Assembly: GCF_014643455.1 (NCBI RefSeq)
Contig: NZ_BMJM01000004.1
Coordinates: 1-64,000 of the forward strand
DNA from: Sandarakinorhabdus glacialis
GTDB lineage: Bacteria > Pseudomonadota > Alphaproteobacteria > Sphingomonadales > Sphingomonadaceae
Direction of reading: 5' to 3'
DNA: 64,000 nt
Positions 16,901 to 46,636 of the stretch are shown in pieces. The notes under the pieces are model-generated. The model was not told the DNA's origin. It did not search any database and was given only the letters and a program-made list of their open reading frames with translations. Every line of letters starts with the position of its first letter. The first letter of the stretch is position 1. The position numbers were made by a program, and so were the translations under genes.

Positions 16901-17025
16901 GCACGGGCAAAGCCCGCGCTGACGTCGGACGGGTTCGCCGGGTGAAGACCCCGCCGCCCCGCCGGCCGGTCTTGCGCCCGTCGGCGCACTACGCTGCGCG
17001 ATACGCGCTCGCGGCGCTGCGCCTA
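16901..17025 (-). repeat. Stop-codon-anchored three-hairpin repeat, copy 1 (kup)
   Basis: Read in the sense of kup, the repeat starts with the TAG stop codon of kup and ends with the hairpin GCGCGGGCTTTGCCCGTGC. It shares with copies at 31999, 44774 and 46520 the blocks GGCGCAAG-CCGGCCRGCGGGGCGG and CGTCYGACGTCAGC. The end hairpin differs from that of copies 2 and 3 by paired changes. Confidence 0.85.
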
Positions 17026-18930
17026 AATCTCCACCTGCGACCCCAACTCAACCACCCGATTCGTCGGCAGCTTGAAGAAATCCATCGCGCTTTCCGCGTT
17101 GCGCATCATCCAGCTGAACAGATGCTCGCGCCACAGCGCCATCCCGGGCCGATCGCTCGCCAACAGCGTCTGCCGCGAAAGGAAAAAGCTCGTCTCCATC
17201 ATCTTCAGCTTCGGCCCGCAGTTCTCGACCGTCTTGAGGACCGCCGGAATGTTGATCTCCTGCATGAAGCCATAGCGGATGATGATCCGGAAGAAATTCG
17301 ACCCCAGGTCGGCAACGCCGATACGGTCCTCCTCGGACACATACGGCACCTCGTCGATCACCACCGTCAGGATCAGAATTCGATCGTGGAGCACCTTGTT
17401 GTGCTTCAAATTGTGCAGCAGCGCGTGCGGCACCCCCGTCGGCGTCGTCGTCATGAACACCGCCGTTCCCGGCACCCGCGTCGCCGCCGTCGCTGCCGAC
17501 TTGATGAACACTTCCATCGGCATGGCGCTTTCCCGCAGCCGCTCCTGCATCAATCCGCGGCCCTTGGCCCAGGTCGTCAGGAACGTAAATGCAATCGCGC
17601 CGACGGCCAGCGGAAACCAGCCGCCATCGGGGATCTTGGTCAGGTTCGAGGCAAAATACGCCGTGTCGATGATCAGGAACACCCCGACGAAACCATAGGC
17701 GATCCAGCGGTTCCACTTCCAGACCGTCAGCACCAGCACCGCCATCATGCACGTCGTGATGAACATCGTGCCGGTTACGGCGATGCCGTATGCCGACGCC
17801 AAGTCGGATGAACTGCGGAAGCTGACCACCAGCAGGATGACCATGCCGAGCAGGCTCCAATTGACCAGCGGGATATAGATCTGCCCCGCCGCCGCTGCCG
17901 ACGTATGCTTGATCTTGATCCGCGGCAGGAACCCCAACTGGACCGCCTGCCGCGTCACCGAAAACGCTCCCGAGATGACCGCCTGGCTAGCGATGATCGT
18001 CGCCATCGTCGCCAGCAGCACCAGCGGCAACCGCGCCCAATCCGGCGCCATCAGGAAGAACGGGTTGGCCACCGCCGACGGCGTGCTCAGCAGCAGCGCC
18101 GACTGGCCGAAATAATTGAGCAACAGCGCCGGCATGACAAAATACAGCCACGACCATTTGATCGGCCGCCGCCCGAAATGCCCCATGTCGGCATACAACG
18201 CCTCGGCGCCGGTAACCGACAGCACCACCGAACCCAGCGCCAGAAAGCCCAGGCTGGGATTGTCGGCAAAGAATCGCCACGCCCAGATCGGGTTGATCGC
18301 CTGGAAGATCGCCGGATTGGCGATGATCTGGTTGATCCCCATCACCGAGATGACCACGAAATACACCAGCATGATCGGCGCGAACAACGCCCCGACCTTG
18401 GCCGAACCGCGCGACTGGATCAGGAACAGCCCGATCAGGATGCCGATGGCGATCGGCAGCACATAGGCCTGCATCCCGGATCGCACGACGGTCAGGCCCT
18501 CGACCGCCGAAAGCACCGAGATCGCCGGCGTGATGATGCAGTCACCGAAGAACAGCGCCGTCGCCAGCACCCCGAGCAGTGTGAGGTAGCGCGACCGTGT
18601 CGAAGTCGGCGACAGCCGCGAGATCATCGCCAGCAGCGACAGGCTGCCACCCTCGCCGCGGTTGTCGGCGCGCAGGATCACCAGCACATATTTCACCGTG
18701 ACGATCAGCGTCATCGTCCAGAACACCAGGCTCATGATGCCGTAAATGTGCAGCGCATCAACCGCCAGCTTGTGATGACCGGTAAAGGTCTCCTTCAGCG
18801 CGTAAAGCGGACTGGTACCGATGTCGCCGAACACCACGCCGATTGCGCCCACGGCCAGCCGGGCCGTCCCTTGCGGAGCATGGCCAGCTTGCGCGGGGTC
18901 GTTGGTCGTCGTCGCAGCAGGGCTCGACAT
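17023..18930 (-). CDS. kup: Potassium uptake protein Kup
   Basis: A 635-residue K+/H+ symporter with about 12 membrane helices and a cytoplasmic C-terminal domain. The N-terminal signature [21 protein letters not shown] and the block [15 protein letters not shown] are diagnostic. Length is normal. The start at 18930 is the only ATG close to the first helix. It is transcribed away from ald with about 150 bases between. Its stop codon forms the first bases of the three-hairpin repeat at 16901-17025. Confidence 0.95.
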
Positions 18931-19077
18931 CTTTGTTCGGTTCCCGGAAGAGCAGCGGGCGGCGCGTTAACACAGACATGACAGTGCTGCAATGCAACAC
19001 CCCTGCGACCTTGGATTGCCCTGTCCTCGGCAGCTGTCAATCGCTATGGCAGAGTAATCGATTTTGCGGAGAAAACC

Positions 19078-20175
19078 ATGCACGTCGGCGTCCCCAGGGA
19101 AATCAAGGTCCACGAATACCGCGTCGGTTTGACGCCCCCCGCCGTTGCCGAACTGACGGCACGCGGTCATGGCGTCACCGTCGAAACCGGCGCTGGCGGC
19201 GGCATCGATTTCACCGATGAAGATTACGTCGAGGCCGGCGCCCGGATCGCCCCCGGCCCCGAGGCGGTGTTCGCGGCCGCCGACATGATCGTCAAGGTGA
19301 AGGAACCGCAGCTCCACGAATGCGCCTGGCTCCGCCCGGGCCAGACGCTGTTCACCTACCTCCACCTCGCCGCCGACAAGCCCCAAGCCGAGGCGCTGAT
19401 GGCCTCGCACGCAACCTGCATCGCCTATGAAACCGTCACCGATCGCGCCGGCGGGCTGCCCTTGCTGCGCCCGATGTCCGAAGTCGCCGGCCGCATGTCG
19501 GTCCAGGTCGGCGCCCATTATCTCGAAAAGGAGCAGGGCGGCCGCGGCATCCTGCTTGGCGGCGTCCCCGGCGTCGCGCCCGGCCGCGTCGCCATCCTCG
19601 GCGGCGGCGTCTCGGGCGTCAACGCCGCACAAATGGCGGTCGGCATGCGCGCCGACGTCACCATCTACGACATCTCGACCAGCCGCCTCGCCGAGATCGA
19701 CGAGATGTTCGAAGGCCGGGTCAAGACCGCCTTCTCGTCGCGTGCCGCCATCGCCGCCGCCATCGCCCGCGCCCATGTCGTCATCGGTGCCGTCCTCATC
19801 CCCGGCGCCGCCGCTCCCAAGCTCGTCACCCGCGACATGCTAAAGCTGATGAAGCGCGGCAGCGTCCTCGTCGACATCGCCATCGACCAGGGCGGCTGCT
19901 TCGAAACCAGCCACGCCACCACCCACGCCGACCCGGTCTATGTCGTCGACGGCATCATCCACTATTGCGTCGCCAACATGCCCGGCGCCGTCGCCCGCAC
20001 CTCGACCTTCGCGCTCAACAACGCGACTTTGCCCTTCGTCCTCCGCCTTGCCGACAAGGGCGCCGCCGCCGCCATGGCCGCCGATCCGCACCTCGCCGAA
20101 GGATTGAATGTCGCCGCCGGCCAGATTCGTCACAAGGCCGTCGCCGACGCCCTCGACCTCGCCTTCGTCGCATGA
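19078..20175 (+). CDS. ald: Alanine dehydrogenase
   Basis: The 365-residue enzyme reversibly deaminates L-alanine to pyruvate with NAD+. Seen are the N-terminal signature [18 protein letters not shown], the substrate lysine in VKVKEPQ (about 72-78), the catalytic histidine in [11 protein letters not shown] and the Rossmann motif [18 protein letters not shown], with the acidic NAD-binding residue at the end of the next strand (TIYDIS). GGAG lies eight bases before the ATG. Its stop overlaps the start of the DJ-1 gene (ATGA). Confidence 0.93.
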
Positions 20176-20864
20176 GCAAGCCCGCCCCCTATCATATCGG
20201 CTTCCTGCTCTGGCCCGACCTGACCCAGCTCGACATGACCGGCCCGGCGCAAGTCCTCAGCCGCATGCCCGGCGCCCGGCTGCACTTCGCCTGGAAAAGC
20301 CTGGATCCGGTGATGAGCGATTGCGGCCTCGCCCTCGTCCCCACCACCACCCTCGCCGATTGCCCGCCGCTCGACATGATCTGCGTCCCCGGCGGCGTCG
20401 GCGTGGCGCCGATCATGCGCGATCCCGAGGTCCTCGCCTGGCTGCGCGCCCGCGCCGAAACCGCCAGCCTCGTCACCAGCGTCTGCACCGGCTCGCTGAT
20501 CCTCGCCGCCGCCGGATTGCTCAACGGCTATCGCGCTGGCTGCCACTGGGCCGCCGGCAGCCAGTTGCCGCTGTTCGGCGGCGAATTCGTCCGCGAACGC
20601 GTCGTCGTCGACCGCAACCGCATCACGGCCGGCGGCGTCACCTCGGGCATCGATTTCGGCTTCCGCATCATCGAGCAACTCCACGGCCGCGACGTCGCCG
20701 AGGCCGTCCAGCTCTCGATCGAATATGATCCGGAACCGATCGGCGGCGGCACCCCCGCCACCGCCCGCCCCGAAATCCTCGCCCGCGTCGAAGCCATGAT
20801 GGCCGACAGGCTGGGCTCGCGCGCCGCCGACATCGCCGCAATCGCCGCCGAAAAGGCCTTCTGA
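20172..20864 (+). CDS. DJ-1/PfpI family protein, isonitrile hydratase-like
   Basis: The 230-residue protein has the class I glutamine amidotransferase-like fold with the nucleophile cysteine in SVCTGSLILAAAGLL (about residue 102) and FLLWPDLTQLDMTGPAQVL at the N-terminus, the layout of isonitrile hydratase (InhA of Pseudomonas, similar length). The precise substrate is not predictable. The gene is translationally coupled to ald, which may mean only co-transcription. Confidence 0.82.
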   Translation: MSKPAPYHIGFLLWPDLTQLDMTGPAQVLSRMPGARLHFAWKSLDPVMSDCGLALVPTTTLADCPPLDMICVPGGVGVAPIMRDPEVLAWLRARAETASLVTSVCTGSLILAAAGLLNGYRAGCHWAAGSQLPLFGGEFVRERVVVDRNRITAGGVTSGIDFGFRIIEQLHGRDVAEAVQLSIEYDPEPIGGGTPATARPEILARVEAMMADRLGSRAADIAAIAAEKAF

Positions 20865-20960
20865 ACCGCTATCCTAAATAGTTACCTGGACATGAAACTT
20901 CGCACGTCCAGCCGGCGTAGCTCTGTCGCGAACCATCTCGCGAACAAGGAAGGCTGCCAA

Positions 20961-21836
20961 ATGACATTCAGATCGAATTCCGCACTCAAGCTCACCGGCC
21001 TTGCAATCGCCATCGCCGCACCGGCCGCGACCGCATCTGCCGAAACCATCTTCGGCCTCGCCGGCGGCAACATCGTCACCTTCGATTCGGCGACGCCCGG
21101 GACCGTCAATTCGTCGCGCGCCATCACCGGCCTGGCTTCCGGCGAGCGCCTTGTCGGACTTGACCTGCGCCCGGCCACCAAAACCCTGTATAGCGTCAGC
21201 ACCAGCGGCAACCTCTACACGCTCGCCCGCGGCGCCGGCGGCACATATGTCGCCACAAGCATTGGCATCATTGCCCCGCCGCCCACCGGCAGCAACTTCG
21301 GGATCGATTTTAACCCCGTTCCAGACCGGCTCCGGTTGATCAGCGACACCAACCAGAACCTGCGTATCAATCCCACCAACGCTGTCACCCTCGTCGATAC
21401 GCCGATCACGCTGAACGGCAGCAGCACCGTCGATATCATAGGGTCGGCGTATGCCAACAACCGTGCCGGCGCCTTGACGACCAGGCTCTACGGCCTTGAC
21501 GCTATCACCGACAGCCTGCTGGTAGCGACCAATGCCAACGCCGGCACCTATATCAACGTCGGCGCACTGGGCGTTGCCTTGGGCAGCCTTGACCGCGTCG
21601 GGTTCGATATCTCGGGCCGCACCAACAACGCCTTTTTCTCGGTCCGCAACAGCCTTTACAGCCTCAACCTCGGCACCGGCACTGGCACCCTCATCGGCAA
21701 CGTCGGCGCCGAAGGATTGGCCGGCATCACCGCCGCCGGCGTCCCCGAGCCCGCCAGCTGGGCCATGCTCATCGCCGGCTTCGGGCTTGTCGGAGCAAGC
21801 ATGCGCCGCCGCACAGCGGCCCTCGCGCGCACCTGA
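20961..21836 (+). CDS. DUF4394 protein with PEPxxWA-CTERM tail
   Basis: A 291-residue exported protein. A signal peptide (LKLTGLAIAIAAPAATASA) is followed by a DUF4394 domain, a repeating beta-rich fold with GSNFGIDFNPVPDRLRLISD and NLRINPTNAVTLVD as typical blocks, and the C-terminal sorting tail PEPASWAMLIAGFG with an arginine-rich end. It should be delivered to the cell surface or matrix by the PEP-CTERM/exosortase route. ATG 20961 has AAGGAAGG upstream; the ATG 23 codons earlier would spoil the signal peptide. A strong hairpin follows the stop. The sorting tail is nearly identical to that of the 3349-4275 protein, while the bodies are unrelated. Confidence 0.88.
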   Translation: MTFRSNSALKLTGLAIAIAAPAATASAETIFGLAGGNIVTFDSATPGTVNSSRAITGLASGERLVGLDLRPATKTLYSVSTSGNLYTLARGAGGTYVATSIGIIAPPPTGSNFGIDFNPVPDRLRLISDTNQNLRINPTNAVTLVDTPITLNGSSTVDIIGSAYANNRAGALTTRLYGLDAITDSLLVATNANAGTYINVGALGVALGSLDRVGFDISGRTNNAFFSVRNSLYSLNLGTGTGTLIGNVGAEGLAGITAAGVPEPASWAMLIAGFGLVGASMRRRTAALART

Positions 21837-21842
21837 CGGGCA

Positions 21843-21877
21843 GATCCGGCCGGCAAGCCTGTCCCGCCGGCCGGATC
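21843..21877 (+). terminator. Perfect 12-bp hairpin after the DUF4394 gene
   Basis: GATCCGGCCGGC pairs with GCCGGCCGGATC over an 11-base loop, six bases past the stop. There is no U-run. It parallels the hairpin behind the other PEP-CTERM gene. Confidence 0.7.
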
Positions 21878-21950
21878 ACGCCATCACATCTCGTCATCCT
21901 CGGCTTCACACGGGATCCGGCCAACGATCAGCCGGTGCCGCGCTCCCGGC

Positions 21951-23315
21951 TCAGACCCGCGCCGCAGCCGCCCGCAGATCATCGACGAACTTGCGCCGCT
22001 CCTCCGCCGCGACCGCTGGATCCTCGATCCTCAGCAGATAACTCGGATGCACGGTAATCCACAGCTCCGATCCGTCGGGCTGCAAGATCGCCCGCCCGCG
22101 CTCCTTCGAAATCGTCACCGCCTTGCCGGTAATCCCCCGCGCCGCCGTCGCCCCCAGCGCCACGATCACCTTGGGCTTCACCGACGCGCGCTCGGCGTCG
22201 AGCCACCACCGGCACGCCGTGATCTCGCCGGCATCGGGCTTGCTGTGGATGCGCCGCTTGCCGCGCGGCTCGAACTTGAAATGCTTGACCGCGTTGGTGA
22301 CATAGGCGGTGCGCCGGTCGATGCCCGCCTCGGCCAGCGCCGCATCAAACACCTGCCCCGCCGGGCCGATGAATGGCCGCCCCGCGAGATCCTCCTGGTC
22401 GCCGGGTTGCTCGCCGACGAACATCAATGCCGCATCCTCCGGCCCCTCGCCGAACACCGTCTGCGTCGCCGGCCCGAACAGCCCGCAGCGCTTGCACCGC
22501 GCCGCTTCGTCCCGCAATTGCCCCATCGAGCCCGTCGCCCCCTCGATCGTCCCCGCTGCAATCATCATGCGTGTCCTCTTCGCCGCCCCGGCGATCAGGT
22601 CGGGGATCAACGTCGCCTCGGGCAGGTTCTTCCAGTATTTCTTCGGCATCTCGCTGGTCATCGCGTCGATCTTCAGCCGGGCCGGATTGAATATGCTGGC
22701 ATAATATGTCTTCCAAGTCGCCTCGAGCGGATCGTCGCCCGGCGCGTCGGCCTTCACCGCGCCAGGTGAATAGGTCACCTCGTCGCCGTCCCAGTGCATG
22801 CAGAGTTCGGGCGTCAGGATCGAAAAGATCATCGTCGTGAACCGCCGGGTAAAGAACCCGCTGTTGTACCGAACGATGTGATGCTCGGGCTCGAACCACG
22901 CCGCGAACCGCTCCCCGGCCTCGTCGGGCGCTTCACGAAACCGCACAAACGCCCGCATCTTGTGGACGTCGCGACCGACCGCCTTGGCCATCATGTCAAG
23001 CCGCCGCACCAGCGGATCGGCGCTATCCTCGAGCAGTTTCGGCCGCTGCTGCAAGGCCAGCAAGGCACTGTGCAGCAAGGCGAACCGCTCACGATCGCTG
23101 TTGCAGATCACCCGCCGCGCCAGGTCGGGAAACGCCTTGGGCACCCGGATCTCGGCGCCGGTCCCGGCCGGCGGCCCGCCACCGATCAGATCGCCCGGCT
23201 CCCCCTCGATCCTCCACGTCACCGCCTCGGGCGGGACCCAGGCGGTGATCAGCTTGCGGACCGCCACCCGGAACCCGTCGAAATCATCCGGTGCGGCAAG
23301 AGTGATCGTCGTCAT
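21951..23315 (-). CDS. udgX: UdgX-type uracil-DNA glycosylase fused to DUF4130
   Basis: The 454-residue protein joins an N-terminal DUF4130 domain (about 1-225; FRVAVRKLITAWVPPEAVTW, FARRFTTMIFSIL-like core, WKTYYASIFNPAR) to a family-4-like uracil-DNA glycosylase domain (about 260-450). The latter has GEQPGDQED (301-309) and the UdgX hallmark KRRIH (353-357), whose histidine in characterised UdgX forms a covalent bond to the abasic site after uracil removal. Cys274, Cys277 and Cys368 are candidate iron-sulfur ligands, and HPSYLLRI is the usual C-terminal motif. It lies 38 bases after the radical SAM gene, in the same direction. DUF4130 has no known activity. Confidence 0.92.
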   Translation of the reverse strand: MTTITLAAPDDFDGFRVAVRKLITAWVPPEAVTWRIEGEPGDLIGGGPPAGTGAEIRVPKAFPDLARRVICNSDRERFALLHSALLALQQRPKLLEDSADPLVRRLDMMAKAVGRDVHKMRAFVRFREAPDEAGERFAAWFEPEHHIVRYNSGFFTRRFTTMIFSILTPELCMHWDGDEVTYSPGAVKADAPGDDPLEATWKTYYASIFNPARLKIDAMTSEMPKKYWKNLPEATLIPDLIAGAAKRTRMMIAAGTIEGATGSMGQLRDEAARCKRCGLFGPATQTVFGEGPEDAALMFVGEQPGDQEDLAGRPFIGPAGQVFDAALAEAGIDRRTAYVTNAVKHFKFEPRGKRRIHSKPDAGEITACRWWLDAERASVKPKVIVALGATAARGITGKAVTISKERGRAILQPDGSELWITVHPSYLLRIEDPAVAAEERRKFVDDLRAAAARV

Positions 23316-23353
23316 CGCCAGTCACAACGCCGGCGAGACGCCCGGCGCTCCCG

Positions 23354-24595: not shown

Positions 24596-24752
24596 TCGTT
24601 CGGTATATGTTCCGAAAGCCGAACTGACAATGCGGCGTTTTAGCCGGGTTGATCATCCATGGCTGCCCCAGCGGCCGCACCGCCGCGCTGCTTGCCACCG
24701 GTCGCCTCCCCCCGCTACGACTTTGACGATACCGCAAGGGGACCACCGCCAC

Positions 24753-26839: not shown

Positions 26840-26897
26840 CCTCCCTCCCCCCTGCGGGGAGGGCGACTCGGCCTCAGCCGAGCGGGGTGGGGGTTCC
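26840..26897 (+). repeat. G-rich two-hairpin repeat, copy 2
   Basis: Hairpin 1 is CCTCCCTCCCCCCTGCGGGG followed by AGGG, then GCGA, hairpin 2 CTCGGC-CTCA-GCCGAG and the G-rich end CGGGGTGGGGGTTCC. It starts six bases after the stop of the preceding gene. Confidence 0.85.
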
Positions 26898-26925
26898 TCA
26901 CTACCTCGAGAAACTCCCAACTCCC

Positions 26926-30004: not shown

Positions 30005-31233
30005 CAACAAAAACCTTTTCCTCCCCCTCAAGGGGGGAGGCGAGAGACGCACCTCTCGGTGCGGCCCGGGTGGGGGTGTCTCCCCATGCAGAAAAAACCG
30101 ACCCCTTGGCCCTCTACGTCCATTGGCCCTTCTGCGTCACAAAATGCCCCTATTGCGACTTCAACTCCCACGTCCGCGCCACAATCGACGACAACGCCTG
30201 GCGCAACGCCCTCCTGACCGACCTGGCCCATGAAGCCGCGCGCCTCCCCGGCCGCCGCCTCGCCAGCATCTTCTTCGGCGGCGGCACCCCCTCGCTGATG
30301 CCGCCGGCCACCGTCGCCGCCATAATCGAAGCCGCCATTACCCACTGGCCCCCCGAATCCGACATCGAGATCACCCTCGAAGCCAACCCCAGTTCGGTCG
30401 AATCCGCCCGCTTCGCCGGTTTCGCCGCCGCCGGCATCAACCGCCTCAGCCTCGGCCTCCAGGCGCTGAACGACGCCGATCTGAAAGCCCTTGGTCGCCC
30501 CCACGATCTCGCCCAGGGCCTCGCCGCGCTCGACATCGCCCAAGCCCATTTCGCCCGCGTCAGCTTCGACCTGATCTACGACCGCCCGGGCATGACCACC
30601 GCCTCGTGGCAGGCCGAACTCGCCCGCGCCGTCGGCTTCGGCACCAGCCACCTCTCGCTCTACCAGCTCACCATCGAGCCCGGCACGCGCTTCCACGCCC
30701 TCCACGCCAAGGGACAACTCTCGCTCCCCGACCCCGAAACCTCCGCCGACCTGTTCGACATGACACGCCAGATGACCGCTGCCGCACGCCTGTTCGCCTA
30801 TGAAGTCTCGAACCACGCAAAGCCCGGCGCCGAAAGCCGGCACAATCTCGCCTACTGGACCTATGGCGATTACGCCGGCATCGGCCCCGGCGCCCACGGC
30901 CGCCGCATGGGCACCGCCACCGAGCGCCACAAAAAACCCGAAGCCTGGCTCGCCGCCGTCACCGCCACCGGCCACGGCATGACCGTCGAAGCGCCATTGG
31001 CCCCCGCCGACCGCGCCACCGAATTCCTCGTCATGGGCCTCCGCCTCGCCCAGGGCATCGACGCCCAGCGCTTCCTGTCCCGCACTGGCCTCGAACTGAG
31101 CTCGATCCTCCGCCCCGACCGCGTCGCCCGCATCGTCGCTCAGGGCCTGCTCGAACACGACGCGCAAGGTCTGCGCCTGACCCCTGCCGGCCAACCCTTC
31201 GTCGACGCCGTTCTCAAGGAAATCGCCCGCTAA
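30001..31233 (+). CDS. hemW: Radical SAM heme chaperone HemW
   Basis: The 410-residue protein has the radical SAM motif FCVTKCPYC (Cys45, Cys49, Cys52), [11 protein letters not shown] and the HemW C-terminal domain with [20 protein letters not shown]. HemW delivers heme to membrane proteins; older annotation as oxygen-independent coproporphyrinogen oxidase is not supported for this subgroup. HemW normally begins only a few residues before [10 protein letters not shown]. Here about 30 residues precede it, most of them encoded by a dispersed repeat ([20 protein letters not shown]). The ATG overlapping the rdgB stop is the natural coupled start; no other ATG or GTG with a binding site lies after the repeat, so the extension is probably translated. 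Confidence 0.9.
30018..30080 (+). repeat. G-rich two-hairpin repeat, copy 4, inside hemW
   Basis: The repeat (hairpin 1 CTCCCCCTCAAGGGGGGAG, hairpin 2 CGCACC-TCTC-GGTGCG, end CCCGGGTGGGGGTGTC) lies 17 bases after the hemW start codon and is in frame, so it is translated as residues about 6-27 of the protein. Confidence 0.88.
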
Positions 31234-31290
31234 CTCCCTCCCCCCCTGCGGGGAGGGCGACTCGGCGCCAGCCGAGCGGGTGGGGGTTCC
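31234..31290 (+). repeat. G-rich two-hairpin repeat, copy 5
   Basis: It begins at the base after the hemW stop codon. Hairpin 2 here is CTCGGC-GCCA-GCCGAG, and the G-rich end is GCGGGTGGGGGTTCC. Confidence 0.85.
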
Positions 31291-31304
31291 CGCACCTCCC
31301 GAAA

Positions 31305-31970: not shown

Positions 31971-31998
31971 CGTTAGTCCCTACAGAAGGCAGCAAGGG

Positions 31999-32114
31999 GC
32001 ATGGGCAAAGCCCATGCTGACGTCAGACGGGCTCGGCGCGCTTCGCTCGCGCCGCCCCGCTGGCCGGTCTTGCGCCTGTCGGCGCGTAGCGATTGCTACG
32101 CGCGCGCGGCGCTA
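31999..32114 (-). repeat. Stop-codon-anchored three-hairpin repeat, copy 2 (lipoprotein gene)
   Basis: In the sense of the lipoprotein gene it starts at its TAG stop, then hairpin 1 GCGCGTAGC-AATC-GCTACGCGC, the common GGCGCAAG block, hairpin 2 CGGCGCG-AGCGAAG-CGCGCCG, CGTCTGACGTCAGC and hairpin 3 GCATGGGC-TTT-GCCCATGC. Confidence 0.87.
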
Positions 32115-33380
32115 CGACCCAAAGCTCCGCGGCGCCGGCGAGACCGTCGTAATCACCCCGTTCCCGATCTGCTGCACCTCGAGCCCCCGCTCGGCAATCC
32201 CGCCCGGCGTAAACCGAAACGCCCCATCGATCCCGGCAAACCCCTCGCGCGCCGTCAGCAACGCCCGCGGAAACGGCGTTCCCAGTGCCCAATTCCCCGC
32301 GATCGAGTTCACCAGCAACACCGAATCATACCCGAAACTCGCCAGCCGCGACGGCGTGCTGCCGTATTTGGCACGGTAACGCTGCGTCAGCTTCACGAAC
32401 CGATCGTCCGGCACCGCCGAAAACAGCGCCCCGCGCAGCGCCGCCGCCCGCGCAATCCCCGGCTCGTTGTTCCACAATTCGGTGCCCACCAGGATGACGC
32501 TGCCCGGCGGCGCCCCGAACTTCGCCAGCGCCGGGATGAACTGCCCCGCCACGCTCCCCGAATCGGCGATCAGCAACGCCTGGAACGGCAATGGCGCCGC
32601 CGTCGCCTTCACCTGCGCGACGCTGCCGTCCGGCCGGATCGTCGCCGTCGTCTTGCCCTTGGTGCGCGCATCATACGCCGTCACCGCGCGCGCCGCCGCG
32701 ATCATCTTGGCCGGGTCGCGCGCATAGCTCGCCACCGCGGTCGATCGCCCGCCCGCCGCGTCCACCGCCCGCACGAACGCCGTCTGCGCCCGCTGGCCAT
32801 AAACCCCCGCCGGCACCAGCGCCGCAAATCGCTGGATGCCGCGCGACCCGGCATAGGCAATCGTCCGCGCGATCGACTGGCTCGGCTGGAACCCGAGCAC
32901 GAACACATCGCCGCCCGCCAGGCTCGAATCATTCGAAAAACTGATGACCGGCACGCCGCGCGCCTGCGTCACTGCTGCCACGGCCCGCACATCGCCGGCC
33001 AGCAACGGCCCCAGCACCAGCGTCGCGCCCTCCGCCAACGCGCGCCCTGCTGCCGCCGCCGCACCCGGCGTCGTGTCATACACCCGCAAATTCACCCTCT
33101 GGTCGCCCACATCGAGCAACGCCATGTTCGCCGCATTGGCGATCGACTGCCCGACCGGCGCGTTGGCACCCGTCAACGGCACCAGCAGCGCCACGCGGTT
33201 CTGCTGCGCCTCGGGCAACGGCGTCGGCGCCGTCGTCGCCGGGCCGGTTGCCGCCGGCGGCGGTCCCAGCACCGCCGGCCGCTGCGGCGTCGCGCACGCC
33301 GCGACGAACAATGTCGCGCCGATAACCGGCGCCGCTTGCCAGCCGCGGTGCCGACGCTTCAGGATAGGCATATGCAACAT
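32112..33380 (-). CDS. Lpo/LivJ-like periplasmic lipoprotein (penicillin-binding protein activator family)
   Basis: The 422-residue protein has a lipoprotein signal with lipobox VAAC (Cys29) and a type 1 periplasmic-binding-protein fold (NRVALLVPLTGANAPVGQSIANAANMAL in parts, then TLVLGPLLAGDVRAVAAV and PVISFSNDSSLAGGDVF), the layout of LpoA-type penicillin-binding protein activators. In E. coli LpoA stimulates PBP1A; that role here is inferred. The start at 33380 has CCGGGG five bases upstream on its strand; an alternative start is at 33371. The start region overlaps that of rsmI on the other strand. Its stop opens a three-hairpin repeat. Confidence 0.85.
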   Translation of the reverse strand: MLHMPILKRRHRGWQAAPVIGATLFVAACATPQRPAVLGPPPAATGPATTAPTPLPEAQQNRVALLVPLTGANAPVGQSIANAANMALLDVGDQRVNLRVYDTTPGAAAAAGRALAEGATLVLGPLLAGDVRAVAAVTQARGVPVISFSNDSSLAGGDVFVLGFQPSQSIARTIAYAGSRGIQRFAALVPAGVYGQRAQTAFVRAVDAAGGRSTAVASYARDPAKMIAAARAVTAYDARTKGKTTATIRPDGSVAQVKATAAPLPFQALLIADSGSVAGQFIPALAKFGAPPGSVILVGTELWNNEPGIARAAALRGALFSAVPDDRFVKLTQRYRAKYGSTPSRLASFGYDSVLLVNSIAGNWALGTPFPRALLTAREGFAGIDGAFRFTPGGIAERGLEVQQIGNGVITTVSPAPRSFGS

Positions 33381-35414: not shown

Positions 35415-35423
35415 ATATTGATT

Positions 35424-35451
35424 GTCATCCCGGGCTTGACCCGGGACCCAG
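35424..35451 (+). repeat. Short REP-like palindrome
   Basis: GTCATCCCGGG-CTTGA-CCCGGGACCCAG, nine bases after the sirB1-type gene. A half-destroyed copy is at 36559 and a variant at 46459. It is a common small interspersed palindrome type in alphaproteobacteria. Confidence 0.8.
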
Positions 35452-38206: not shown

Positions 38207-38208
38207 CG

Positions 38209-38658: not shown

Positions 38659-38765
38659 TGCACCCTCGCAAACGGTTGTTCAGACTGTCGTCATCGACGC
38701 CGGCACAGCTTGCCGCAAGTCGCGGATTGATCAGCCCCCGCCAGCACCGCTCGAAAAGGCCCCAG

Positions 38766-39479: not shown

Positions 39480-39488
39480 TTGCCCGCC

Positions 39489-40253: not shown

Positions 40254-40981
40254 CCGGTCCCGTCCAAAATCATCGTCACCGCGCCCAGCAACAGCGCAAT
40301 ATCCTGCGGCCGCGACAGCCGGTGGTCGCCTTCCTTGACCAGCATCACCTGAACATCGTCGGAACGCACCAGCCCGGCAATTTGGGGCGCCAGCCGCCAC
40401 GGCACAGCCTCGTCGCGCTGCCCCTGCAACAACCGCACCGGTGCCGAAATCCCGATCGGCCCGCTCAGCACCAGCTGCCCCGGCGCATCCTCGATAAAGG
40501 CCCGCGAATACCGATACCCCTCACCATCATATTCACTCGCCCGCCCGAACCAGCCCTGCGCCGCCAAATCCGCCCGGTCGGCATCGCTCACCTCGAGCCC
40601 CCATTCGGTAAAATCCGGCGCCGCCGCGATCCCCACCAGTCCCGCCAGCCGATCCCCCAGCAACACCCCCAGCCGCAGCGCAATCCAGCCCCCCATCGAG
40701 CTTCCCACGAGCACCACCCGCCGCCCCGGCGCTGCCCGCTCGATCACCGCCAACGCATCCGCCGTCCACCGCGAGATACTCCCCTCAAGGAATTCCCCGC
40801 CACTCGCCCCGCACCCCGAATAATCGAGCCGCAAGAACGCCCGCCCGGTCCGCGTCGCCCAGTCCGCCAGCGCCATCGCCTTCGACCCGGTCATGTCCGA
40901 CATATAGCCGGGCAGGAACACCGTCACTGGCCCCGCCCCCTCGGTCATCAGCCACGCCAGTTCGTCATCAACCTTGCTCAT
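40250..40981 (-). CDS. Alpha/beta hydrolase
   Basis: The 243-residue protein has [14 protein letters not shown] (oxyanion region), the nucleophile elbow [16 protein letters not shown], an acidic residue in [12 protein letters not shown] and the histidine in [10 protein letters not shown], so the triad is complete. It resembles the ABHD10-like depalmitoylase/thioesterase group. The substrate is unknown. It is upstream of and coupled to the TPR gene, divergent from thrS. Confidence 0.87.
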
Positions 40982-41097
40982 CCCCCCTCATACCGTCCCC
41001 ACCCGCGCTGCACCACGCGATTGACTTCCCGCCCCGCCTTGCCGCAGGTGACGCCCGCGCCAACATCGCGCCCTTCACCATCCCCAAGGCGAGTTCC

Positions 41098-43101
41098 ATG
41101 TCCGATCTCATCAACCTCACGCTCCCCGATGGCTCCGTGCGCAGCGTCGCGCGCGGCACCACCGGCGCCGACGTGGCGGCGAGCATCGGGCCGGGCTTGT
41201 TGAAGGCCGCCCTCGCCGCGCGTGTCGACGGCAACCTCGTCGACCTGTCGCGCCCGATCCTCGCCGACGCCAGCCTCGCCCTCGTCACCAGCAAGGACGA
41301 AGCCATCGCGCTCGATCTCGCCCGGCATGATTTCGCGCATGTCCTCGCCGAGGCCGTCCAGCACCTCTTCCCCGGCACCCAGATCACCTTCGGCCCTTCG
41401 ACAGACGACGGCTTCTACTATGATTTCGCCCCCGCAGGCCGCCAGTTCACCGACGAAGACCTGCCCGCCATCGAGGCCGAAATGCGCGCCATCATCGCCC
41501 GCAACGAGCCCCTCGTCCGCGAGGAATGGACCCGCGACGCCCTCATCGCCCATTTCAAGGCGCACGGCGAAAGCTTCAAGGCCGAATGGGCCGCCGAACT
41601 CCCCGACGGTGAAGCGCTCAGCGTCTATCGCGCCGGCAACCAGCCCGACGCCTGGCTCGATCTCTGCCGCGGGCCGCATCTGCCCTCGACGGGCAAGCTC
41701 GACCCCAGCGCCTTCAAGCTGACGCGCGTCTCGGGTGCCTATTGGCGCGGCGACCAGGCCAACGCCATGCTCAGCCGCATCTACGGCACCGGCTGGCTCA
41801 ACAAGAAGCAGCTCGACGCGCACATGACGCGCCTCGAGGAGGCCGCCAAGCGCGATCACCGCCGCATCGGTGCCGAGATGGACCTGTTCCACCTCCAGGC
41901 CGAGGCGCACGGCAGCGTCTTCTGGCACCCGCGCGGCTTCGTCATCTACCGCGCGCTCGAGGCCTATATGCGCCGCCGCCTCGACGCCGCCGGCTATCTC
42001 GAAGTCAAGACGCCGCAGATCATGGACGCCCGCCAATGGGAACAGTCCGGCCATTGGGGCAAATACCGCGAGAACATGTTCGTCATCCCCGATGAAGTCC
42101 CCAACATCTCGGATGTAGGCCCCGTCATCTCGCACGACGCGCAATGGATGGCGCTGAAGCCGATGAACTGCCCGGCGCACGTCCTCATCTTCCGCCAGGG
42201 CATCAAATCCTACCGCGACCTGCCGCTACGCCTCGCCGAAATGGGCTGCTGCCATAGGAACGAGCCCCACGGCGCCCTCCACGGCCTGATGCGCGTTCGC
42301 CAGTTCACCCAGGACGACGCGCACATCTTCTGCCGCGAAGACCAGATCGTCGGCGAAATCGCCAAGTTCTGCGACCTGCTCGATGTCGTCTACAAGGACC
42401 TCGGCTTCTCCGACTATGCCATCAAGCTGGCGCTGCGCCCCGACAAGCGCTTCGGCACCGATGCGATGTGGGACTGGTCCGAACAATCGATGCGCGACGC
42501 CGTCGCCGCGACCGGCCGCGACACGCCAGACTGGGGCTGGGAGGAACTGCCCGGCGAAGGTGCCTTCTACGCGCCCAAGCTTGAATTCCACCTCACCGAC
42601 GCCATCGGCCGGACATGGCAGGTCGGCACCATCCAGACCGACACGGTGCTCCCCGACCGCCTTGACGCCAGCTATGTCGGCGAGGACGGCGGCCGCCACC
42701 GCCCGGTCATGCTCCACCGCGCCATCCTCGGCAGCTATGAACGCTTCATCGGCATCCTGATCGAGCATTACGCCGGCCGCTTCCCGGTCTGGCTCGCCCC
42801 CGTCCAGGCCGTCGTCGCCACCATCGTGTCGGACGCCGACGAATATGCCGGCATCGTGACGGCAGCGCTGCAAAAGGCCGGCATCCGCACCGACACCGAC
42901 CTGCGCAACGAAAAGATCAACCTGAAGGTCCGCGAGCACAGCCTGTCGAAAGCCAGCTACATGCTCGTCGTCGGCCGCCGCGAAGCCGAGGAAGGCACCG
43001 TCGCCCTGCGCAACCTCGCCGGCGGCGACCAGCAGGTCCTCACCCTCGCCGAAGCCATCGAACTGCTCAAGGCGGAAGCGACACCGCCCGACCTGCGGTA
43101 A
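41098..43101 (+). CDS. thrS: Threonine-tRNA ligase
   Basis: The 667-residue class II synthetase has the TGS domain ([21 protein letters not shown]), the editing domain with [20 protein letters not shown], the catalytic core with zinc ligands ([13 protein letters not shown]; Cys then later His) and motif 2/3 segments [21 protein letters not shown] and [20 protein letters not shown], then the anticodon-binding domain. Length is normal. Its stop overlaps the next start (TAATG). Confidence 0.96.
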
Positions 43102-43781
43102 TGATCCCGCTGCGCGCCGGCCTCGCAGCGTCGCTGCTGCTTGCCGGCGCGCCGCTTCATGCCGCTGGCGGGCCGTCCCTCGTCGACGATGCCGGTACAG
43201 TTACCCCCGGAACCTGCGAACTCGAAACCTATGGTAATTTCGACACGGGCAAGTCGTGGCGAACCGTCCTGTCGCCGACTTGCGCGCTGTCCAACTGGCG
43301 GGGTGTCGAGGTCGGCATCATCGCTGCATTGCAGAGCGCGATTCCGGGCGATCCTGTCGACGTCGTCCCGGGTGTCGCCGTCAAGGCCCAACTCGGCAAG
43401 CTCGGGCCAATCAGCTTCGGTGCCGAGATCAGCGCCGGTTTCGACCCCGAGGGCAACCAGAGCCAGTATATCGCCACCAATCTTGCCACCAGCTTCGACA
43501 CCCCCGACTGGCTCGAACTCCACGCCAACGCCGGCATGGATTTCGAACCCGGCCGCGCCGGCATCCCGACCTGGGGCCTTGCCGTCCTCCTCGAACCCGT
43601 CAGCAACTGGCAGTTCGTCGCCGAAGCCGCCGGCCGCTCGCGTTTCCGCACCCGCACCCAGGCCGGCATCCGCCGCACCGCCGGCGCGTTTGTCCTGGAC
43701 CTGCCCTACAGTCGCAACATCGACGAGCAGCGCGGCGGCGCCTCGGTCAGCGCCGGCGTGACCTGGACCTTCGGGCTCTGA
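43101..43781 (+). CDS. Hypothetical exported beta-rich protein
   Basis: The 226-residue protein has a signal peptide (LRAGLAASLLLAGAPLHAAG) and alternating hydrophobic strands ending in an aromatic residue pattern (GASVSAGVTWTFGL), suggesting a small outer-membrane barrel. The family is unknown to me but similar proteins occur in sphingomonads. It is coupled to thrS by a one-base overlap, which looks incidental. Confidence 0.7.
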   Translation: MIPLRAGLAASLLLAGAPLHAAGGPSLVDDAGTVTPGTCELETYGNFDTGKSWRTVLSPTCALSNWRGVEVGIIAALQSAIPGDPVDVVPGVAVKAQLGKLGPISFGAEISAGFDPEGNQSQYIATNLATSFDTPDWLELHANAGMDFEPGRAGIPTWGLAVLLEPVSNWQFVAEAAGRSRFRTRTQAGIRRTAGAFVLDLPYSRNIDEQRGGASVSAGVTWTFGL

Positions 43782-43809
43782 CCGCGCCCCCGGCCGGAAA
43801 GGCAGCAAG

Positions 43810-44049
43810 ATGGCCACCACCCGCGATCGCCTCGAAGCCGAGATGCACGCCGCCGCCGCCGCCGGCGAATTCGAACGCGCCGCCAAACTCCGCGACGATC
43901 TGAGGGCTCTCGCCTACGATCCCAGAGAGATCCACGAACAGGTCCCCGGCGCCATGGGCATCGGCACCCAGCATCCCAAGCCCTCGCCCCCCGCCAACTG
44001 GAAACGCCCCAAAAAACCCGACTCCATGACCAAAAACCGCAACCGCTAG
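43810..44049 (+). CDS. Small UvrB/UvrC-motif protein
   Basis: The 79-residue protein contains one UVR motif ([28 protein letters not shown], quoted here in its first and last parts), the helical hairpin by which UvrB and UvrC meet and which also occurs in small regulators. The remainder is proline- and lysine-rich. A GAAAGGCAGCAAG stretch precedes the ATG. It might modulate nucleotide excision repair or a Clp-type protease; neither is shown by sequence. Confidence 0.72.
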
Positions 44050-44056
44050 CCCCCTT

Positions 44057-44118
44057 GTCCTCCCCCTCGAGGGGGGAGGTCGAGAGACGCGTCTTCGCGG
44101 CCCGGGTGGGGGTGTCCC
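44057..44118 (+). repeat. G-rich two-hairpin repeat, copy 6
   Basis: Starts eight bases after the stop of the UVR-motif gene; stems as in copy 1 with an extra T after GGGAGG and a hairpin 2 around CGTCTTCGCG. Confidence 0.85.
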
Positions 44119-44217
44119 CCCGCGCCGAACCAAGGCTACCTCCCCCGCCAACGTAATTTCTGGAAGCTCCCTTTCGATTTTCCCCCATAACGGTTACATA
44201 GCAATTGCAAACACGTC

Positions 44218-44233
44218 AGGAGACACTGCCATA
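44218..44233 (+). promoter_or_regulatory. Ribosome binding site deciding an AUA start for infC
   Basis: AGGAG at 44218-44222, eight bases (ACACTGCC), then ATA at 44231-44233 in frame with infC. The first ATG in frame (44252) is 29 bases from the AGGAG and has no closer binding site. Confidence 0.75.
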
Positions 44234-44776
44234 CCACCGCCCCCACGCCGCATGATGAACGCGCCCGCGCCGATGAACGGCCCGCGCTATGACGAATTCA
44301 TCACCGTTCCCAAGGTCCGCGTCATCGACCAGGACGGGGAAAACCTCGGTGTCCTGTACACCAAGGAAGCCATCGCCACCGCCCATGAAGTCGGCCTGAA
44401 TCTTGTCGAAGTCTCCCCCGGCGCCGATCCGCCGGTCTGCAAGATCCTCGATGTCGGCAAGTTCAAGTACGAGGCGCAGAAAAAGGCCGCTGCCGCCCGC
44501 AAGAACCAGAAGACGCAGGAGATCAAGGAGATCAAGATGCGTCCGAACATCGACGACCATGATTACGAGACCAAGATGAAGGCGGTCCACCGCTTCATCG
44601 AGGAAGGCGACAAGGTCAAGCTGACGCTGCGTTTCCGCGGCCGCGAACTGTCCCACGGCGAACTCGGCCTGGCCCTCCTCGAACGCGTCCGCGACGACGC
44701 CGCCGAATATGCCAAGGTCGAACAGACGCCGAAGATGGAAGGCCGGCAAATGCTCATGGTGATAGCACCGCGCTGA
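44231..44776 (+). CDS. infC: Translation initiation factor IF-3
   Basis: The protein is typical IF-3: [19 protein letters not shown] in the N-domain, a lysine-rich linker ([24 protein letters not shown] in parts) and the C-domain with [21 protein letters not shown]. Initiation on AUU, AUA or AUC is known for infC, because IF-3 itself rejects such codons and so limits its own synthesis. Here the only well-placed ribosome binding site points to AUA at 44231, which gives 181 residues beginning MPPPPRRMM; with the ATG at 44252 it would be 174. The stop TGA sits in a hairpin and opens a three-hairpin repeat. Confidence 0.93.
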
Positions 44777-44904
44777 CGCGCGGTGCGGGCGCGGCCCGCC
44801 GCAAGCCTTCACTTGCGGCGCGACTCGCGCCTCACCCGGCCAGCGAGGCGGCGGGGCCTTCCCCCGCCGAACTCGTCTGACGCCAGCATGGGCTTTGCCC
44901 ATGC
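44774..44904 (+). repeat. Stop-codon-anchored three-hairpin repeat, copy 3 (infC)
   Basis: Starts with the infC TGA. Hairpin 1 is CGCCGCAAG-CCTTCA-CTTGCGGCG, hairpin 2 GGCGGGG-CCTT-CCCCCGCC, then CGTCTGACGCCAGC and hairpin 3 GCATGGGC-TTT-GCCCATGC followed by CTCTTCC. In addition GCACCGCG / CGCGGTGC pair across the stop codon itself. Confidence 0.87.
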
Positions 44905-44977
44905 CTCTTCCTTCCCTTGCCCCCCAACGACATCTTGTCTCTTCCCGCCCCACCCCGCGTGGCTTATACCGCACCTC

Positions 44978-45706
44978 GTGCACCGTTTCGCCAACCCCGC
45001 CCGTTTCCTGCGCATCGCGCGCTGGGCGACGCCGCTCACGCTGGCCCTCGGCCTCGTCCTGACCACCGCCGGCCTCGTCATCGGGCTGTTCTTCTCGCCG
45101 CCGGATTACCAGCAGGGCGAAAGCGTCCGCATCATGTACGTCCACGTCCCGGCCGCCTGGCTCGCCTCGGGCGGCTATCTCGGCCTCGCCATCGCATCGG
45201 CCGCTGCCCTCATCTGGCGCCACCCGCTCGCCACGATCGCCGCGCGCGCCATCGCCCCCGTCGGCGCCGCCTTCGCCGCGATCTGCCTGATGTCGGGCTC
45301 GCTGTGGGGCAAGCCGACCTGGGGCACTTACTGGGTCTGGGACGCGCGCCTCACCTCGATGCTGGTGCTGCTCTTCCTGTACCTCGGCTATCTCGCTCTC
45401 TCCGCCGCCGAAGGCGAGCGCGGTAATGACCGCAAGGGCGCCGCTATCCTCGCCCTCATCGGCGCCGTAAACCTGCCAATCATCAAATATTCGGTCGAAT
45501 GGTGGAACACCCTCCACCAGGGCGCCAGCGTCAGCATCCTGTCGGGCAAGTCAGCAATGGCCCCCGAAATGCTGGCACCGCTGCTGATCTCGGTCGCCGG
45601 CTTCAGCTTCCTGTTTTCCGCCATCGTCCTCATGCGCATGCGCGCCATGCTCGCCGAACAGCGCGTCGAGGCCCGCTCGCGCCGCCTTGCAGAAGCAGTC
45701 GCATGA
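44978..45706 (+). CDS. ccmC: Heme exporter protein CcmC
   Basis: The 242-residue integral membrane protein has six helices and the tryptophan-rich heme-handling segment WGKPTWGTYWVWDARLTSML, with further conserved residues in IMYVHVPAAWLASGGYL and NTLHQGASV. CcmC loads heme on CcmE for cytochrome c maturation. The frame is open back to 44783, but that part is translated repeat sequence. The GTG at 44978 (HRFANPARFL) gives the usual N-terminus. It overlaps ccmD by four bases. Confidence 0.9.
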   Translation: MHRFANPARFLRIARWATPLTLALGLVLTTAGLVIGLFFSPPDYQQGESVRIMYVHVPAAWLASGGYLGLAIASAAALIWRHPLATIAARAIAPVGAAFAAICLMSGSLWGKPTWGTYWVWDARLTSMLVLLFLYLGYLALSAAEGERGNDRKGAAILALIGAVNLPIIKYSVEWWNTLHQGASVSILSGKSAMAPEMLAPLLISVAGFSFLFSAIVLMRMRAMLAEQRVEARSRRLAEAVA

Positions 45707-45858
45707 CCCACACCGCCAACCTCTGGGCCTCCTACATCTGGCCGGCCTACATCCTCACCATCGGCGGCATGGCAGCGCTTCTCGCCTGGAGCTGGACCAG
45801 CATGCGCACTGCCGAAAAACGCTCCGACGCCCTCAAGCGCTCACGGCAAGACCAGTGA
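45703..45858 (+). CDS. ccmD: Heme exporter protein CcmD
   Basis: A 51-residue single-pass membrane protein (NLWASYIWPAYILTIGGMAA) with a basic, charged C-terminus, at the position where ccmD stands in ccmCDE operons. CcmD helps release holo-CcmE from CcmC. It overlaps both neighbours by four bases. Confidence 0.9.
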   Translation: MTHTANLWASYIWPAYILTIGGMAALLAWSWTSMRTAEKRSDALKRSRQDQ

Positions 45859-46289
45859 GAGTAAAAGCCAAGACCCAGCGCCTCTGGCTCGTCGTCGGCG
45901 CGATGACCGCGCTCGGCGGCGCCGGTGCCCTCGCCCTGACTGCACTCGGCGACAAGGCGACCTATTTCTACGCCCCGTCGGACCTTGCCGGCAAACCCAT
46001 GCCCACCCAGGCCATCCGCCTCGGCGGCATGGTCGAGCGCGGCTCGCTAATGAAATCCGGCCACACCGTCCATTTTACCGTCACCGACAACGCCCGCACC
46101 TGGCCCGTCACCTACGAAGGCATCCTCCCCGACCTTTTCCGCGAAGGCCAGGGCGTTATCGCCGAAGGCCGCATCGACCCCGTCTCCCGCGTCTTCACCG
46201 CCGACACCGTCCTCGCCAAGCACGACGAAAAATACATGCCGCCAGAAGTCGCCGGCTCGATGCGCAAAGTCGAAGGCAAAGTGACCTAG
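45855..46289 (+). CDS. ccmE: Cytochrome c maturation heme chaperone CcmE
   Basis: The 144-residue protein has one N-terminal membrane anchor and an OB-fold domain. The heme-attaching histidine is in LAKHDEKYMPPEV near residue 130, preceded by VEGILPDLF-like YEGILPDLFREGQGVIAEG. The start is GTG, overlapping the ccmD stop. ccmF, ccmH and ccmI do not follow; the operon ends here and a repeat cluster begins. Confidence 0.93.
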   Translation: MRVKAKTQRLWLVVGAMTALGGAGALALTALGDKATYFYAPSDLAGKPMPTQAIRLGGMVERGSLMKSGHTVHFTVTDNARTWPVTYEGILPDLFREGQGVIAEGRIDPVSRVFTADTVLAKHDEKYMPPEVAGSMRKVEGKVT

Positions 46290-46293
46290 TCTT

Positions 46294-46352
46294 TTCCTCC
46301 CCCTAGAGGGGGGAGGCGAGAGGCCCGTCTTCGGGTCCCGGGTGGGGGTGTC
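46294..46352 (+). repeat. G-rich two-hairpin repeat, copy 7
   Basis: Hairpin 1 CTCCCCCTAGAGGGGGGAG, hairpin 2 CCCG-TCTT-CGGG (a pairing unlike that of the other copies), end CCCGGGTGGGGGTGTC. It starts four bases after the ccmE stop. Confidence 0.85.
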
Positions 46353-46384
46353 CCCCGTCGACACAGAGCTGCCCCTTCCCAATC

Positions 46385-46487
46385 TGTCATGCCAGCGAAG
46401 GCTGGCATCCAGCCGCCCCGCCAAGACCGCTCCCCCAGCACGAGCGCCCAATAGCAACTGTCACCCCGGGATAGACCCGGGACCCAG
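46385..46487 (+). repeat. Two REP-like palindromes
   Basis: TGTCATGCCAGC-GAAG-GCTGGCATCCAG (46385-46412) and TGTCACCCCGGG-ATAGA-CCCGGGACCCAG (46459-46487). The second matches the palindrome at 35424 apart from the first bases and the loop. Confidence 0.8.
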
Positions 46488-46519
46488 CTGCTTCTCTGCG
46501 GAGAAAAGCAAGCAAGCAA

Positions 46520-46636
46520 GCATGGGCAAAGCCCGCGCTGACGTCAGACGAGTTCGGCCAGCGAAGCTGACCGCCTCGCTGGCCGAGCTTGCGCGAGTCC
46601 CGCCGCAGCTATGCTGCGACGGGCCGCCCTGCGCTA
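46520..46636 (-). repeat. Stop-codon-anchored three-hairpin repeat, copy 4 (TonB receptor gene)
   Basis: In the sense of the receptor gene it starts at its TAG stop. Hairpin 1 is GTCGCAGC-ATA-GCTGCGGC, hairpin 2 CGGCCAGCGA with TCGCTGGCCG, then CGTCTGACGTCAGC and hairpin 3 around GGGCTTTGCCC. Confidence 0.87.

Follow-up and report, generated by a model that had tools for sequence, protein, structure and literature searches.

The window analysed here comprises 64,000 nucleotides (nt) of Sandarakinorhabdus glacialis, contig NZ_BMJM01000004.1, and carries four copies of a repeated, structured element at the 3' ends of genes. The copies, named A to D, follow kup (PF02705), an LppC-like lipoprotein gene (PF13458/PF04348), infC (PF00707/PF05198) and a TonB-dependent receptor gene (PF00593), as identified with Pfam. 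The gene downstream of copy C is a cytochrome-c assembly gene (PF01578). An original prediction, made from the sequence of the window, had described four repeats in the sense of these genes, and all four were found at their given positions with the common words that it quoted. We consider it probable that the repeats represent a sense-oriented composite terminator and 3'-end module of Sphingomonadales, dispersed and homogenised by copying. The copies and their hairpins are as follows, with scores from covariance model R1, which was built from 19 copies.

16896 to 17024, minus strand: copy A (115.8 bits, E 1.7e-19), after kup, stop TAG at 17023-17025
16969 to 17023, minus strand: copy A hairpin 1, mapped from alignment A2
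16921 to 16967, minus strand: copy A hairpin 2, mapped from alignment A2
16901 to 16919, minus strand: copy A hairpin 3, GCGCGGGC-TTT-GCCCGTGC, mapped from alignment A2
31994 to 32119, minus strand: copy B (133.6 bits, E 5.4e-23), after the LppC-like lipoprotein gene, stop TAG at 32112-32114
32067 to 32118, minus strand: copy B hairpin 1, alignment mapping
32019 to 32065, minus strand: copy B hairpin 2, alignment mapping
31999 to 32017, minus strand: copy B hairpin 3, alignment mapping
44781 to 44909, plus strand: copy C (91.3 bits, E 1.1e-14), after infC, stop TGA at 44774-44776
44782 to 44836, plus strand: copy C hairpin 1, with a longer outer stem than in copies A, B and D
44838 to 44884, plus strand: copy C hairpin 2, alignment mapping
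44886 to 44904, plus strand: copy C hairpin 3, followed by CTCTTCCTTCCCTT
46515 to 46636, minus strand: copy D (106.7 bits, E 1.1e-17), after the TonB-dependent receptor gene, stop TAG at 46634-46636
46586 to 46635, minus strand: copy D hairpin 1, alignment mapping
46540 to 46584, minus strand: copy D hairpin 2, alignment mapping
46520 to 46538, minus strand: copy D hairpin 3, with one C-A mismatch (by eye), followed by TTGCTTGCTTGCTTTTCTCC on the minus strand

Covarying fold and position at gene ends

The four repeats belong to a larger family, with 27 matches of R1 in the window's genome at E <= 0.001 and 29 at E <= 0.1. An exact pattern gave 15 matches in the same genome, which by eye were 13 full copies, a short copy that lacks hairpin 2 (L002) and a chance match in coding sequence (L006). 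Among 24 genomes of the same genus, the exact pattern detected 9 carriers and the covariance model detected 24, each with 7 to 45 copies; one genome per species was compared throughout. Statistics were calculated on 162 copies, namely the best-scoring 133 of approximately 490 genus matches outside the window's genome and the 29 matches within it. The element as matched was 101 to 163 nt long, with a median of 125 nt.

The element starts with an outermost stem of 3 bp that touches or crosses the gene end. Hairpin 1 combines a GCGC[C/G] stem with several fixed bulges and an apical stem that varies, and it occurs in two forms, GCGCC/GGCGC and GCGCG/CGCGC, both of which were found at one orthologous gene in different species. 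Hairpin 2 has the base GGCC[A/G]GCG...CGUC[C/U]GACG below a variable apical stem. The blocks that had been described as shared words, GGCC[AG]GCG and CGTC[CT]GACG, are present and are the two strands of this base. The variable pair in the base covaried in 22 of 22 copies inspected by eye, and in the alignment it was G-C in 54 copies, A-U in 53, G-U in one and another combination in one. In 123 of 156 copies, hairpin 3 is 8 or 9 bp long; GGC-UUU-GCC closes it in most cases, and a pyrimidine-rich tract follows it at the 3' end of the element.

Covariation was measured on alignments A2 to A5, which are fitted to the model and therefore biased towards it. In 110 distinct copies, 35 of the 42 base pairs showed two-sided changes, and 97.2% of the paired cells could pair, compared with 80.9% after shuffling and 28-35% when the structure was slid. 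The number of cells changed on both sides was 684, compared with 171 in the shuffled alignments. The covariation score was 0.427, compared with 0.132 ± 0.004 after shuffling, and no measure reached its observed value in any of 500 shuffles. Similar results were obtained with 88 copies from 10 genomes (0.529, shuffled 0.142) and with 58 copies that included other genera (0.548, shuffled 0.144). The expectation that the hairpins stay paired although their letters change was borne out by significant covariation; hairpin 3 of copy D has a mismatch. The minimum-energy fold of hairpin 1 in copy A, folded alone, differs from the family fold. Chance folding of GC-rich DNA was rejected because the slid and shuffled controls failed and because the first model matched nothing in 135 of the 147 genomes sampled from the order.

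The position of the element was compared with coding frames that were called by length and third-position GC, homology being used for the window genes only. A same-strand, coding-like stop codon lay at -10 to +25 of the model 5' end in 127 of 158 copies, compared with 106 of 3160 random positions (3.4%) in the same loci (4 of the 162 copies, with less than 250 nt upstream, were left out). Among the 127 coding-anchored copies (156 examined), 112 had a stop codon that began at -3 to +8 of the model 5' end, and antisense genes were present at the element 3' end in 9 of 150 cases. Of 40 copies in another six genomes (G011 and G001, which belong to the same genus, and four from other genera), 30 were anchored at stops, and five more followed tRNA-like ends by eye. 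The original prediction had the copies begin exactly at the stop codon. They begin near it, but not strictly at it; the infC stop lies at -7 of the model 5' end. The anchor is the gene 3' end rather than the stop codon itself. No coding stop was assigned to 31 copies; 17 of these adjoin RNase P RNA (7), signal recognition particle (SRP) RNA (5) or a tRNA (5), the fifth tRNA case being the weak match L082, and the remaining 14 include L109, the second copy of a tandem. A stop-codon-specific insertion site was rejected because the element abuts all three kinds of stop codon and several kinds of stable RNA end. Neighbouring copies within 600 nt were arranged tail-to-tail in 14 cases, in tandem in one and head-to-head in none (168 places). 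This arrangement would be expected if each of two convergent genes carries a copy.

The outermost stem was also examined at fixed positions in the 88 of 162 copies that contain both anchor words, which is the only pairing test that does not depend on the model. All three pairs were formed in 61 of 88 copies, with a shuffled mean of 19.5 and a maximum of 34 in 5,000 shuffles, and shifting the stem by 1-3 bases left no more than 6 of 88 copies paired. The outer stem takes its 5' strand from sense codons ahead of the stop in 25 copies, 23 of which form all three pairs (shuffled mean 6.5, maximum 13 in 2,000 shuffles). Copy B is an example within the window: its outermost stem pairs GTC, from the last sense codons, with the GAC located 3' of hairpin 1. 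At the gene ending in MNQFAA*, one species has ...GCG GCG TAG with the partner GCC, and two others have ...GCA GCG TAG with the partner GCT. At the gene ending in PGAPRA*, the pairs are GGC/GCC or CGC/GCG by way of a synonymous Arg codon. In the aligned sequences, the predicted outermost stem spans the stop codon, and its bases in sense codons covary with their partners.

The anchoring and the covariation support the earlier proposal of a selected RNA structure in the 3' untranslated region (UTR), acting as a terminator or a 3'-end protector. In the proposed mechanism, the transcript would pass from the gene end directly into hairpin 1, some bases of the outermost stem being located at the stop codon or 5' of it. 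The module would then be completed by hairpin 2, the tight hairpin 3 and a pyrimidine-rich, U-enriched tract. Hairpin 3 and the tract, or in certain genomes a hairpin with a U-tract inside hairpin 2, would stop RNA polymerase, and the stacked hairpins, flush with the coding end, would deny ribonucleases an unstructured 3' UTR. The copies may spread or homogenise by DNA copying, for example through gene conversion or some kind of mobility.

Tails of the element and transcription termination

The sequence past hairpin 3 was analysed in 156 copies, the 6 of 162 without a recognisable hairpin 3 being left out. At least 4 T in an 8-nt window within the first 14 nt past hairpin 3 were present in 109 of 156 copies, compared with 267 of 2478 controls. 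T occupied 51-70% of positions 3-5 and 40-51% of positions 7-9, compared with a background of 17%. Per-genome tails and nested terminators were analysed with 5 of 88 rows left out. The proportion of T in the 12 nt past hairpin 3 ranged from 23% in G169 to 68% in G202 (9 copies), and 4 T of 8 were reached in 9 of 9 copies of G202 and 11 of 14 copies of the window's genome. An A-tract, hairpin and T-tract were found nested inside hairpin 2 in 5 of 8 copies of G011 and 5 of 6 copies of G001, compared with 0 of 69 in eight other genomes. Loci with such a hairpin 2 (L135:191-325, L154:147-299, L285, L287 and L290-L294) lie at gene 3' ends, and they give the impression of a canonical terminator inserted within the element. 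Nested terminators were usual in some genomes of the genus and were found twice in others.

Orthologous genes with and without the element were compared at E <= 0.001, at which it was present at 13 of 22 rnpB, 6 of 23 rpmG and 15 of 24 ETF-QO orthologues. Names of genes outside the window, such as ETF-QO and rpmG/bL33, are those that we presume from their C-terminal sequences. A stricter script required a hairpin followed by at least 5 T of 8. At rpmG, hairpin 3 scored as a hairpin with a U-tract in 5 of 5 element copies examined. Among the other 17 rpmG genes, 10 had a plain hairpin with a U-tract 26-31 nt past the stop; of the remaining seven, one was a weak element that scored and six showed no terminator. 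To judge from these tails, the element and plain intrinsic terminators exchange at rpmG.

Several results weigh against termination as the general function. Fewer than 4 T of 8 followed hairpin 3 in 47 of 156 copies, and the tract was weak in G017 (1 of 7 copies), G271 (1 of 5) and G169 (3 of 10). With the stricter script, ETF-QO tails with the element scored in only 7 of 15 cases (six by a nested hairpin and one by hairpin 3), ETF-QO genes without it had no terminator in 8 of 9 cases (1 of 9 scored), and 0 of 10 rnpB tails scored as a hairpin with a U-tract, the sequence past the rnpB hairpin 3 being C-rich. If the nested terminators were fully working, hairpin 3 would not be transcribed and its conservation would need another reason. 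A copy in Sphingomonas sp. R647 has a separate A-tract and hairpin within approximately 15 nt downstream, followed by CCTTTATT. A weak, rearranged copy (L082:1501-1605, E 0.028) lies between tRNA-Ile and tRNA-Ala of an rRNA operon, and it counts against termination because a terminator is not expected inside such an operon. Given these tails, the terminator reading is well supported by sequence at rpmG genes and in the genomes G202, G011 and G001, but has weak support at rnpB. How transcripts end in GC-rich alphaproteobacteria without strong U-tracts is, to our knowledge, poorly known.

The strongest alternative, which we regard as possible but rather unlikely, is that the structure stabilises the RNA or blocks 3'-5' exonucleases without terminating, termination occurring at a downstream site or by Rho. 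The copies with little U-tract, the rnpB tails, the terminator-like hairpin downstream of the R647 copy and the copy inside the rRNA operon would all fit this alternative, as would the conservation of hairpins 1 and 2, given that one hairpin suffices for a terminator. Against it stand the U-enrichment directly past hairpin 3, the exchange with plain terminators at rpmG, the canonical terminators nested in G011 and G001, and the location of the element next to genes in need of a terminator. The combined terminator and 3'-end module is the more probable reading. Its position, orientation, covarying fold, U-enrichment and rpmG exchange are established at the level of sequence, and termination and 3'-end protection would be the functions to which they point.

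Distribution and spread of the element

In a sample of the order, 12 of 147 genomes carried the element according to the first model, and all 12 belonged to one family, presumably Sphingomonadaceae. With a broader model, for which up to 12 candidates were scored per genome, carriers in the family numbered 53 of 298 genomes, from 21 of 96 genera, and those in a sample of the class 2 of 289 genomes. The two carriers in the class sample belonged to the same family, and the element was not found with this model in the other families of that sample. Among the carriers are Sphingomonas soli NBRC 100801, Sphingomonas sp. R647 (a partial match) and metagenome bins of Sphingomonadales. Genes hosting the element in more than one genus included infC, ETF-QO, bL33 and the SYFNGEDVR, DFFDAMNH and ALFRR genes (L337, L342 and L343 being left out of the 17 loci).

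The 127 coding-anchored copies fell into 62 gene clusters, 33 of which were common to at least two genomes. Random placement gave a mean of 2.4 shared clusters and a maximum of 9 in 2,000 runs, assuming 3,000 equal genes; fewer eligible genes would give higher values. In a ten-genome sample, the identity of 37 orthologous pairs was 0.53, that of non-orthologous copies was 0.52 and that of paralogues in the same genome was 0.69, and the orthologue was closer than the paralogue in 8 of 37 pairs. Within the genus, orthologues were slightly closer (+0.037, 48 pairs), and paralogues of the same genome were closer than copies from different genomes in 8 of 9 genomes. The exception was the window's own genome, with 0.593 within the genome compared with 0.641 between genomes. 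Genome groups were named after their form of the element. Pure vertical inheritance was ruled out, since orthologous copies were hardly closer than non-orthologous ones both in the ten-genome sample and within the genus. Gene positions are shared and the sequence follows the genome more closely than it follows the gene; therefore, the positions are kept or re-occupied and the sequences are homogenised, which could be caused by gene conversion or repeated insertion.

A mobile repeat inserting at stop codons was the other option in the original prediction. As a route of spread this is possible, but alone it leaves the covariation with sense codons and the copies at stable RNA ends without an account. 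As a full explanation, a mobile palindromic DNA repeat, similar to repetitive extragenic palindromes (REPs) or miniature inverted-repeat transposable elements (MITEs), would insert at gene 3' ends, its hairpins would serve single-stranded DNA transposition and any role of the RNA would be incidental. We consider this explanation improbable. Dispersal in tens of copies, the higher similarity of paralogues in the same genome and the patchy presence at rnpB, rpmG and ETF-QO orthologues agree with it, and the conserved bulges can be likened to the hairpins that transposases recognise. However, a search for the Y1 transposase domain PF01797 (RAYT) gave a match in one of the 24 genomes of the genus and none in the window's genome; the same search detected the domain in 5 of 14 known genomes used as a control. 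In addition, no target word fits, because all three stops and several stable RNA ends are abutted; outer-stem bases within sense codons covary with the element; and the number of shared gene clusters far exceeds that of random placement.

A phage or plasmid origin was rejected after searches with one copy as the query, which gave no match in 50,697 phage records and one match of 31 bases among 72,556 plasmid records. This match, L335:1501-1531, corresponds to positions 1238951-1238981 of CP091033.1, a plasmid of the distant rhizobium Sinorhizobium sp. B11. It is a near-identical, intergenic stretch of the junction between hairpins 1 and 2, and by eye no full element surrounds it.

It is very improbable that the copies are small RNAs that are released from 3' UTRs and base pair in trans: the length, the 3' hairpin and the U-enriched tail resemble those of small RNAs, but no conserved seed was seen because the unpaired stretches are very short and the apical loops are variable, and copies sit at the ends of tRNAs and RNase P RNA.

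A more far-reaching form of the combined terminator and 3'-end module can be put forward tentatively, although we think it unlikely. In this form, a self-homogenising 3'-end module would be kept or regained by the same housekeeping genes across genera, with a separate dialect in each group of genomes, and the first stem, spanning the stop codon, would be able to form only after departure of the last ribosome, coupling ribosome release to 3'-end formation or transcription termination. The family is a defined, covarying 3'-end structure at housekeeping genes and is carried by a culture-collection strain, Sphingomonas soli NBRC 100801; therefore, the question of how such transcripts end without strong U-tracts is directly testable. 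It is unusual for sense codons to pair with a 3' UTR on the other side of a stop codon, as is the concerted evolution of one family at shared gene positions, and both would be of interest for the fields of RNA decay, translation termination and bacterial repeats.

Other repeats of the window and comparison with known systems

Further repeats were observed in the window. A second family, CCTCCCCC...GGGGGGAGG...CCCGGGTGGGGG, occurs at 16808-16876, 30014-30082, 44054-44122 and 46290-46358, and two of its copies start directly past the stops of plus-strand open reading frames, one at 15633-16805 and the other, encoding CcmE, at 45687-46289. The family may therefore be a further element of gene ends. 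A third family of GC-rich hairpins, CCCCCCTGCGGGGAGGGCGACTCGGC...GCCGAGCGGG, occurs at 26847-26901, 31241-31295 and 50333-50387, and a stretch similar to it follows the rnpB element in the same genome. A hairpin, TGTCATCCCGGGCTTGACCCGGGACCCA, and a diverged copy of it, at 35423-35450 and 46430-46495, resemble the CGTC-REPs of Di Nocera (2013).

In Rfam 15, no family covered the element at the gathering score in the window and 35 loci, or up to E 5 in 7 loci. A literature search, limited to titles and abstract openings and with most subscription journals outside it, returned no description of the element.

According to the excerpted account in PMC3733652, CGTC-REPs are palindromic repeats near gene 3' ends, found mostly in alphaproteobacteria and thought to be transcribed. 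They are single hairpins of 8-9 bp within 20-40 bp, with an unpaired CGTC tag, and form mostly head-to-head dimers; among those located between convergent genes in S. wittichii, most are less than 20 bp from both 3' ends (PMC3733652). The element is similar to CGTC-REPs, as outlined by Di Nocera, De Gregorio and Rocco (2013), in being palindromic and close to gene 3' ends. Unlike these, as far as that outline goes, it has three hairpins and a median length of 125 nt, its CGTC is paired in the 3' strand of hairpin 2 and its neighbours are arranged 14 tail-to-tail, 1 tandem and 0 head-to-head. The same excerpted account describes GTAG REPs, which are mobilised by RAYT and whose GTAG termini often give the TAG stop of the flanking gene (PMC3733652). 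A GTAG at the +5 register of the element likewise provides the TAG stop in a subset of copies. In contrast to GTAG REPs as described there, the element uses three kinds of stop and other registers, and the RAYT domain is scarce among its carriers (1 of 24 genomes). Membership in either class was ruled out by the number of hairpins, the length, the paired CGTC, the orientation and the scarcity of PF01797.

Intrinsic terminators evolve by compensatory changes, according to the excerpted text of PMC5381666. The element resembles them, as characterised there, in its compensatory changes and its GC-rich hairpin 3 at gene 3' ends (127 of 158 copies after sense stops and 17 of 158 after stable RNAs). 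The tail past hairpin 3 is enriched in U, although degenerate. The element differs from that characterisation in having two additional hairpins upstream, conserved and bulged, that abut or overlap the end of the coding sequence, in being a dispersed homologous family and in its often weak U-tract.

Inverted repeats of the uptake sequences of Neisseria double as terminators; these sequences are 10-12 nt long and have thousands of copies. The element is likewise a gene-end repeat with lineage dialects, but it is long and structured and has tens of copies. The enterobacterial repeats ERIC and YPAL, also called RU-1 and RU-2, lie near stop codons. In excerpted descriptions, RU-1 (127 bp) and RU-2 (168 bp) are intergenic and MITE-like. 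The element, compared with them by such description only, is also an intergenic repeat and of similar length, but comes from a different bacterial order. The kinds nearest to the element are terminators and REP-like repeats.

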